64,000 nt of DNA from Thermosynechococcus sp. (GTDB lineage Bacteria; Cyanobacteriota; Cyanobacteriia; Thermosynechococcales; Thermosynechococcaceae), in the NCBI RefSeq assembly GCF_025999095.1, contig NZ_AP024678.1, forward strand, positions 961,527 to 1,025,526, read 5' to 3'. Every line of letters starts with the position of its first letter. Position 1 is the stretch's first letter. The notes below the pieces were generated by a model, which saw nothing but the letters and a program-made list of their open reading frames with translations, was not told where the DNA came from and did not search any database. Positions 37,949 to 40,153 of this stretch are shown here, in pieces. The translations under genes were made by a program, and so were the position numbers.

Positions 37949-38015
37949 GCATCCATAACCAGGCAGGAAAACGTCTTCTGGGTGGATTGATTTTTTGGCC
38001 CTTACCCTTTTTCAC
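37923..38015 (-). CDS. Doubtful short basic ORF between tRNA-Leu and folB
   Basis: Read from a GTG at 38015, this frame encodes 30 residues, MKKGKGQKINPPRRRFPAWL and a short tail. The open frame extends upstream to the tRNA with plausible protein-like content (HSGGKVPEGKTRHQQHFGDTV) but has no ATG, GTG or TTG there, only an ATT. It overlaps the first 26 bases of folB. It could be a small basic protein with an unusual start, a decayed gene or chance. Confidence 0.2.
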   Translation of the reverse strand: MKKGKGQKINPPRRRFPAWLWMHVLERVHN

Positions 38016-38140
38016 TGTATCGCCAAAATGCTGCTGATGGCGAGTTTTCCCCTCAGGGACCTTGCCCCCACTGTGGCTTGGATTGGCAAGGCCACGGGGG
38101 CGATCGCTCCCTCCTAAATGCTCTTCTGGCGAAAACCCAA

Positions 38141-38221
38141 TGCGGATGGCGAGACTCGAACTCGCAAGGCAAAGCCACACGCCCCTCAAACGTGCGCGTA
38201 TACCAATTCCGCCACATCCGC
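38141..38221 (-). tRNA. tRNA-Leu (anticodon GAG)
   Basis: Read on the minus strand, the gene starts GCGGATG at 38221, pairs with CATCCGC near the 3' end and has discriminator base A at 38141. The anticodon stem CACGT/GCGTG (with one G-C mirror pair and a T-G end pair) closes a seven-base loop TTGAGGG, so the anticodon is GAG, reading CUC and CUU. A long variable arm typical of leucine tRNAs and a T-arm with GTTCGAGTC follow. The length is 81 bases and CCA is not encoded. Confidence 0.95.
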
Positions 38222-38351: not shown

Positions 38352-38696
38352 CATGAATACAGCAGCAGCCTCCCCGTCCAGAGGATTTGCTCCTATAAGG
38401 AGTATGAGCTGTTGCCGTGGGCCGAACCCGTGGCGACTATCGTCTCTTTGCTCGCCGGAGCTTTATCAAACTGCCCAGTCCCTTGGTCTTACTCTGAGGG
38501 AGATCAAAGCCGTTGAAGTATACGATCGCGGTGAGATTCCCTGTGATCCCCTCAAGGAAAAGTTAGAGGAGAAATCGGCTACCAGTTACAGATTCTTCAA
38601 CAGGAATTACAAGGCCTCCTATCCGACTGGCGATCGCCCCCCCAACCCCTAAAGGGCACGATCTATCCCCTTCCCCAGCCACTGATGCGCTCCTAA
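38352..38696 (+). pseudogene. Remains of a MerR-family regulator, at least three frameshifts
   Basis: Pieces of one MerR-type protein are found in consecutive reading frames. 38358-38417 encodes SLPVQRICSYKEYELLP, matching the second half of the MerR helix-turn-helix and the ...YYE.LGLLP segment. 38420-38470 encodes GRTRGDYRLFARRSFIK, matching R..GYRLY.....FI. 38470-38573 encodes TAQSLGLTLREIKAVEVYD and RGEIPCDPLKEKLEEK, the dimerisation helix with the cysteine typical of metal-sensing members. 38574-38696 encodes IGYQLQILQQELQGLLSDW to a TAA stop. The order and spacing fit an intact heavy-metal-type MerR. The frame changes and missing N-terminus show that it is dead in this sequence, unless there are sequencing errors. 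Confidence 0.75.
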
Positions 38697-40082
38697 CTAC
38701 TCGTTCATATTCTTGTAGGTGGCCACTGCCGAAGGGGAAATCTGGTTGAGATAACGGAAAATCCAATACTTAAACACTGTATCCAGCATCACTGGAAAGG
38801 TGGCGATGAACATATTGATAAAGTCCTCATTGCGAGGAAAGCCAAAGTGCTCGAGGGTATTATTCACCAGCACCTCCCAGCCGTGGGGGGAGTGGAAGCC
38901 AACAAAGACATCCGTAAATAGAATAATCATAAAGGCCTTGGCACTGTCACTGAGACCATAGACCACCTCATCTAAAAAGGCCTTGACAATGGCCAGTTGC
39001 CGTTGACCCGTAAACACCAGCCCCAAAAAGACCGCAAAACCCAAGGCATCGGAGAGGATGTTTTTTAGGGGTTCAATCAGTTCCTTTTGGTATTCTGTGG
39101 AGAGCTCGATCGCCTTTTCGCGGATGCGGTTTTGGATCTCCTCAGGGGAAAGCGGCACATTACTCACAAGGCTTTCAAAGCGAATTTTGTTCTCAAAGCG
39201 GGCCAGTTCATCAAGGATGTTGTCCTCTAGTTGGGAGTTAATGATCCGCTCAATTTGCCCCACCGCCTTAAAGTGGTTAACAAGGGGGCTGACGATGAGC
39301 GCCTTGGAAATCTGCTGAGTCAACAGGGGCAAAATCACTAGCAACAGCATAAAACGAACCGCCAGGCGGGTACGCAGCTTTGAGGTGCGAAAATCACGAA
39401 CGACCTCAGCTTCAGTGGCTTCATCGGAATTGAGTTCACGGCGAAAGCGATCGGCGGTGCGCAAAATCGAGCGGGGAATAAAGCTGCTGCTATCCAGCTT
39501 GGAATCACTGGTGAGATCATCACTGATATATTCCGAGAGATAAAGAGAATCCTCCTCAATTTTGTCGAGGGCGGCGGCCTGCTGGCGTTGTTGGGGGTCT
39601 TGGCGACTGAGGCTGGGACGGGCTAGGGCATTGAGCTCCTTTTCCCGCTGCCGTTTATAGCGATTGAGGGTGGCGTCAATAACCCGCAGCTTTTCATAAA
39701 TGCTGGGTTCCGCCGTCGTGCCACTGATGGTAGCCGTCACCGTATAGGTTTCCGTTGCACCATTGACGCTATCGTTGACAGGTGAGGGGGGGCTTTGGGG
39801 GGGAGCAAGGGGCAAAATTTGACGGCTCGCCCGAAACTCTGTCATCCGCATACGAATGGTTTTCAGCAGTTGTTTGAGCTCTGTCTCGAAATAGCTAGAG
39901 ACTTCTCCGACGGGCAGATTGAGGGGACTAATGGGTTGACCGTCAAAGTGTTCCAGTTCAATGGCGCGAATTTTCAGAGCGGCTTCATAGGCTTCCTGTA
40001 GGGCGCGGTTAGGAGTTGTGAGGTACCACTGTTGTGCCTGCTTGATCCAGTTTCTAAAGCGACTAAAGGGATTGCTGGACAT
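38697..40082 (-). CDS. pcxA: Proton extrusion protein PcxA (CemA/CotA family)
   Basis: PcxA is a membrane protein needed for light-induced proton extrusion and inorganic carbon uptake. Its plastid relative is CemA/Ycf10. From ATG 40082 it has about 461 residues. The N-terminal 230 residues are hydrophilic. Four hydrophobic segments follow: FMLLLVILPLLTQQISKALI, ILSDALGFAVFLGLVFTG, AKAFMIILFTDVFVGFHSPHGWEVL and FINMFIATFPVMLDTVFKYWIFRYLN. The last two are the conserved CemA core. The frame opens at a TTG (40097) but MSSNPFSRFRNW is the family-like start. The MerR pseudogene lies immediately downstream on the other strand. Confidence 0.93.
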   Translation of the reverse strand: MSSNPFSRFRNWIKQAQQWYLTTPNRALQEAYEAALKIRAIELEHFDGQPISPLNLPVGEVSSYFETELKQLLKTIRMRMTEFRASRQILPLAPPQSPPSPVNDSVNGATETYTVTATISGTTAEPSIYEKLRVIDATLNRYKRQREKELNALARPSLSRQDPQQRQQAAALDKIEEDSLYLSEYISDDLTSDSKLDSSSFIPRSILRTADRFRRELNSDEATEAEVVRDFRTSKLRTRLAVRFMLLLVILPLLTQQISKALIVSPLVNHFKAVGQIERIINSQLEDNILDELARFENKIRFESLVSNVPLSPEEIQNRIREKAIELSTEYQKELIEPLKNILSDALGFAVFLGLVFTGQRQLAIVKAFLDEVVYGLSDSAKAFMIILFTDVFVGFHSPHGWEVLVNNTLEHFGFPRNEDFINMFIATFPVMLDTVFKYWIFRYLNQISPSAVATYKNMNE

Positions 40083-40153
40083 TCCTGTTCTTCTCAATGG
40101 CCACCGCGAAAGCAGTAAATCGATAGGATAGATAAAATCGTAGCAAATTAACT

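Follow-up and report, generated by a model that had tools for sequence, protein, structure and literature searches.

A decayed merR gene in Thermosynechococcus and its predicted distant target, the copZA promoter

Regulators of the MerR family bind a dyad within the 19-20-bp spacer of their target promoters and realign the promoter when metal is bound; two cysteines lie at the ends of their C-terminal metal loop, and a cysteine in place of Ser77 of CueR has been tied to divalent ions (PMC9909328, in the passages drawn on here). Like CueR, which acts at copA in Escherichia coli (PMC9909328, same passages), the protein considered here is a MerR regulator whose predicted effect is to activate a copper-type P-type ATPase gene through a long-spacer promoter. 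Heavy-metal MerR subfamilies ("HMRTR") with predicted 22-bp binding sites already include cyanobacterial members, so the type as such is known; the likeness to the present case lies in their being cyanobacterial metal-type MerR proteins, and the available passages of that study mention neither Thermosynechococcus nor loss (PMC5045206). No described cyanobacterial MerR acting on copA was recognized in the literature searched, as judged by titles and the beginnings of abstracts. What is new here is a merR pseudogene, its joint loss with copZA, and an unlinked operator in Thermosynechococcus.

The sequence analyzed (the window) is a 64-kb stretch of the chromosome. Searched by tblastn with an intact orthologue as query, it contains at 38353-38696 a pseudogene of a 138-aa MerR-family metal regulator: the orthologue of genome G004 gave three linked matches across the whole window (E 6.8e-23), and the best single match scored 58.2 bits, the highest score after 200 dinucleotide shuffles of this region being 20.0 bits. 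The pseudogene, its surviving pieces and its neighbours are as follows.

37955 to 38114, plus strand: fossil of cax (Ca2+/H+ antiporter), first part of the gene; tblastn 33.1 bits (highest of 200 shuffles, 20.8), 74% identity to G004 in DNA alignment
38141 to 38221, minus strand: tRNA-Leu (GAG), intact, divergent from merR
38353 to 38696, plus strand: merR pseudogene from surviving ATG to surviving TAA, by three-frame translation, tblastn and alignment to G004
38353 to 38364, plus strand, frame 0: the ATG and MNTA
38358 to 38414, plus strand, frame 2: YSSSLPVQRICSYKEYELL, N-terminal helix-turn-helix remnant, residues 13-31; the corresponding piece of G002 is matched by tblastn
38417 to 38473, plus strand, frame 1: VGRTRGDYRLFARRSFIKL, last part of the DNA-binding domain with the GDYRLF segment, residues 34-56, across a 15-bp deletion
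38473 to 38580, plus strand, frame 0: AQSLGLTLREIKAVEVYDRGEIPCDPLKEKLEEKSA, beginning of the dimerisation helix, including the conserved cysteine (residues 58-94); tblastn, and PF09278 at 20 bits
38583 to 38696, plus strand, frame 2: QLQILQQELQGLLSDWRSPPQPLKGTIYPLPQPLMRS followed by the stop, C-terminal helix and metal loop, residues 102-138, with the conserved cysteine replaced by tyrosine; tblastn
38697 to 40097, minus strand: intact right-hand neighbour of 466 aa, at the same place in relatives; we take it to be pxcA (pcxA in the preliminary description)

Alignment to G004 shows deletions of 31, 4, 15, 1, 3, and 19 bp in the window copy, four of which shift the frame. The preliminary description, which had recognized a metal-type MerR pseudogene in ordered pieces of different frames between 38352 and 38696 and had called for at least three frame changes, is thus borne out by the translated searches, the E value above, and the four shifts counted. 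Its view that the N-terminus is missing does not hold: the ATG and residues 13-31 are both still there, and what the N-terminus shows is damage, the 31-bp deletion having taken out the stretch between them. As for the conserved cysteines, the one in the long helix is retained (GEIPC), while that near the C-terminus has been lost to tyrosine (TIYPLP). We also weighed the 99-aa open frame at 38353-38652 as a truncated but functional protein and dismissed it, since it joins mismatched frames and no such frame is listed at this place in G002 or G005; its match to the MerR-DNA-bind family (PF09278) reaches 20 bits, below the cut-off of 25.4.

Eleven genomes of the genus were compared (G000-G010), G000 being the window genome with a chromosome of 2,497,893 bp; G004 is taken as strain CL-1, G005 as T. 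elongatus BP-1, G002 as NK55, and G003 as Synechococcus lividus PCC 6715. The comparison with other strains to which the preliminary description had looked for an intact copy finds one, of 136-139 aa, in 8 of the 11 genomes, the gene being broken in the remaining three (G000, NK55, and BP-1). The CL-1 copy (G004:C1:2480795-2481208) lies between tRNA-Leu and the right-hand neighbour; intact merR occupies this place in six genomes and lies elsewhere in two, G003 and G010. In both of the latter it is convergent to a ferritin-like (Dps-like) gene, the G003 copy of which matches Pfam Ferritin. The CL-1 orthologue is 81% and 68% identical in protein to the two longest surviving pieces of the window copy; it is open and constrained, in contrast to the window copy with its six deletions.

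Identical 31-, 15-, and 19-bp deletions are common to G000, NK55, and BP-1; G000 and NK55 share two further deletions and BP-1 has its own. A tree built from four neighbouring proteins, with two of the four lacking for G003 and G010, unites the three in a single clade (support 1.0). By codon position (1/2/3), the intact copies of G004 and G007 differ at 4/6/27 sites, against 15/8/10 for the broken copies of G000 and G002 (p 0.0007). That the frames might be broken merely through errors of sequencing or assembly had been raised by the preliminary description, yet the same three deletions recur in three separate genomes, which excludes sequencing error as their source, and divergence has relaxed across codon positions; we regard the chance of such an artifact as negligible. 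The disrupted frame is shared by descent and codon constraint is relaxed: merR here is a dead gene, an ordinary pseudogene.

A scan of genome contigs provided relatives from outside the genus, and among the best 80 of 510 relatives 77 loci are of this kind, mostly from Nostocales and with some genomes represented several times. In 51 of these 77 loci merR is preceded, on the same strand, by a heavy-metal ATPase (CopA) gene, and it was this arrangement that led to the prediction of copA as the target in Thermosynechococcus. Of the 77 loci (again among the best 80 of 510), 61 have the operator described below for copZA, with at most 4 mismatches in 20 positions, in the 150 bp preceding merR, with no match for the reversed control; in the other 16 no operator was found upstream of merR. 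The same operator (at most 4/20 mismatches) precedes copA in five of the eight loci that hold enough sequence. At least one match was present in 72 of 94 loci, and block shuffles of the 77 loci gave none.

In Thermosynechococcus itself, a TTGACT box followed by a dyad stands before copA or copZ, reading TTGACTCTCTAGTTGACTGGAGACTT in CL-1, and is kept in all eight merR-intact genomes, including the distant G003 and G010. With about 20 bp from the box to a weak -10-like hexamer in each of the eight, the arrangement has the form predicted for a MerR target promoter. A genome-wide pattern scan allowing at most three mismatches found one place in each of the eight merR-intact genomes (read on both strands in G003 and G007, the operator being a palindrome) and none in the three merR-broken genomes, and the reversed pattern matched none of the 11. 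Outside the genus, a scan at no more than two mismatches found a site in 19 of 28 genomes, 14 of the 19 having an inspected locus that encodes copA; there were 35 site rows, 13 of them without surrounding locus, and the reversed control gave one match in 39 genomes. Sites were present in 13 of 15 genomes with a close orthologue against 6 of 13 without one (p 0.04, with the cut for a close orthologue, at least 47% identity, picked after the data were seen). Outside the genus, the link between orthologue and operator is of no more than moderate strength; since the site is present in 6 of the 13 genomes that have no close orthologue and missing from 2 of the 15 that do, the operator may be common to other MerR proteins.

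The gene downstream of this promoter is unlinked to merR in Thermosynechococcus, lying some 361 kb from it in CL-1. A CopA orthologue (67-100% identity) is encoded in 8 of 8 merR-intact genomes and in none of the three merR-broken ones, where the best CopA matches are other ATPases at 39-40%; in G009 it is present as two overlapping pieces with one stop. The presence of merR and of copA thus agrees in 11 of 11 genomes; the corresponding table, 8:0 against 0:3, gives p 0.006, a value that overstates independence because the joint loss is a single event in one clade. A small CopZ-like frame (copZ) precedes copA in five of the eight genomes. The ATPase passes the copper-translocating family TIGR01511 (652.8 bits, cut-off 397) and also the cadmium family TIGR01512 (420.8 bits, cut-off 313.5). 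In the three genomes with a broken merR, the site where copA would be expected lies next to a gene that is presumably ccs1/ResB, and no trace of copA, copZ, or the operator was detected there above background. In the position held by copZA in CL-1, 3' of this ccs1-like gene, related frames of about 200 aa occur in all three merR-broken genomes; we take them to be pilin-like. A copA-copZ operon has been reported from CL-1 (FFX45_10400, FFX45_10405), SCTE542, and S. lividus (PMC7005997, in the part drawn on here), a distribution in keeping with the lack of the operon in the genomes taken here as BP-1 and NK55. "MerR" is absent from the main text of that paper, and regulator, operator, and pseudogene are not linked there (PMC7005997).

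The immediate neighbourhood offers a second candidate. In G001, G004, G007, and G008 a 356-aa cax stands just left of the tRNA, across it from merR, and the CL-1 protein scores 340 bits against the calcium/proton exchanger family (cut-off 211); in the window only the fossil remains, its start ATG changed to ATA and the remainder deleted up to the tRNA. Had merR controlled this adjacent gene, its decay could have followed the loss of cax, as the juxtaposition in those four genomes and the breakage of both genes in the window genome, NK55, and BP-1 would suggest. Against this, G006 and G009 are without cax, yet their merR is intact and its differences by codon position (10/9/34) show constraint; merR and cax are far apart in G003 and G010; and between the start of cax and the divergent gene to its left there are only some tens of bases, which leaves little room for a promoter. 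No operator-like site was found at merR or cax in the three Thermosynechococcus genomes tested, the best candidates having 7-9 mismatches of 20 (7-8 near cax). We consider control of cax improbable, and with no operator found and merR outliving cax in two genomes, it was set aside as the regulated partner; the divergent tRNA-Leu was also considered as a target and no support for it was found. These results, together with the position of merR elsewhere in G003 and G010, give no support to the role at the pxcA/tRNA-Leu locus that the preliminary description had suggested for the regulator. Its proposal of a lost partner was right in substance: the best-supported partner is the distant copZ-copA pair, while the gene lost from beside merR is cax. 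All five genomes that have lost cax (G000, G002, G005, G006, and G009) carry ATA for its ATG; as these do not form one clade in the tree, the common change may reflect chance, recombination, or a wrong tree.

Taken with the decay of merR, the distribution of copA and its operator makes it probable, and we are fairly confident, that the predicted target of the dead regulator was the distant copZA promoter and that regulator and target have both been lost in the lineage of G000, NK55, and BP-1. From what is known of the family, an intact MerR dimer would sit on the long-spacer promoter and activate it when metal binds; in Thermosynechococcus it would do so at a single promoter elsewhere in the chromosome, which would drive copA and, in the five of eight genomes that have it, copZ. 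Both copZA with its operator and an open merR have disappeared from the lineage of the window genome, NK55, and BP-1, merR through deletions that were first shared and later lineage-specific. The comparisons show the homology, the lesions, the relaxed codon constraint, the co-occurrence of merR and copA, and the conserved operator-like promoter; they leave to inference the binding and activation, the metal to which the protein responds, and whether target or regulator went first. Several observations point the other way: in the three Thermosynechococcus genomes tested merR itself is without the operator, unlike most of the homologous loci; the cysteine pattern of the protein does not match known Cu(I) sensors; and where copZA would be expected, a search of the three broken genomes detected no remnant of it or of the operator.

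It is also conceivable that merR had several or other targets, for instance metal genes reached through weaker sites, and that the joint absence of copZA is coincidental. A scan that finds one strong site per merR-intact genome of the genus at three mismatches or fewer would miss weaker ones, and many Nostocales loci hold several sites; set against this are the exact match between merR and copA presence across the 11 genomes and the conservation of the copZA site wherever merR is intact, and we give this account little credence. On the reading that copZA was the target, BP-1, a strain in wide laboratory use, and its closest relatives are predicted to be without the metal-inducible copper-export operon present in CL-1. 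The case also illustrates how a pseudogene can point to a lost regulon: its relatives lead to an operator, the operator leads to a single target in each genome, and that target and the regulator prove to be absent together.

Which metal the intact protein would respond to is less readily read from its residues. The G004 and G003 copies score above cut-off for PF13411, PF00376, and PF09278, and the intact orthologue falls below the cut-offs of all NCBIfam families matched: MerR, the best, at 92.2 bits (150.85 required), the Zn(II) regulator at 90.9 (143), CueR at 83 (147), and CadR-PbrR likewise. Its closest solved structure is 4ua1 (E 1.5e-18), which we take to be Bacillus MerR. An alignment of 85 sequences shows just two conserved cysteines, Cys82 and Cys129, each present in 84 of them with one gap; no column with six or more cysteines was found at the position of the first metal-loop cysteine, so the loop is not of the two-cysteine form. 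E. coli CueR is marked by Ser77, Cys112, and Cys120; in the orthologue Cys82 stands where CueR has Ser77, and Cys112 has no equivalent. In having a cysteine at the Cys79 position it resembles the divalent-metal regulators of the ZntR/PbrR type, and we presume the whole copZA dyad to be close to the zntA operator. The -35 box TTGACT of PpbrA and PzntA is exactly that of copZA (PMC3431237, in the passage drawn on here). It differs from the ZntR/PbrR type in that its apparent target is a copper-type ATPase, its first loop cysteine is absent, and its scores lie below the ZntR and CadR-PbrR cut-offs.

Judged from residues and genome context, then, a sensor with a divalent-metal-type cysteine and without the first loop cysteine appears to act on a Cu(I)-type pump. 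Given the copper-type target, control of copper efflux by intact merR is likely, while, with the non-CueR cysteine pattern, the metal sensed may or may not be Cu(I). It is possible, though we hold the idea only tentatively and somewhat short of even odds, that the pseudogene comes from a cyanobacterial MerR subfamily whose only conserved cysteines are Cys82 and Cys129, the usual first one of the loop being absent, and whose members nonetheless regulate a Cu(I)-type ATPase by way of a ZntR-like operator, in many cases at a distance. Sensing of Cu(I) by that subfamily would run counter to the reported rule by which the residue at position 77/79 decides between monovalent and divalent selectivity; the case also raises a testable question of metal selectivity for cyanobacterial MerR proteins.

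Elsewhere in the window genome (G000:C1:2327656-2327766), a MerR-DNA-bind trace of 24 bits, just below the cut-off, lies in a 69-aa open frame and is possibly another MerR remnant; it showed no match to the second MerR of BP-1. In Nostoc, several copies of the operator occur within one 6.4-kb locus (three loci), suggesting a larger metal regulon.
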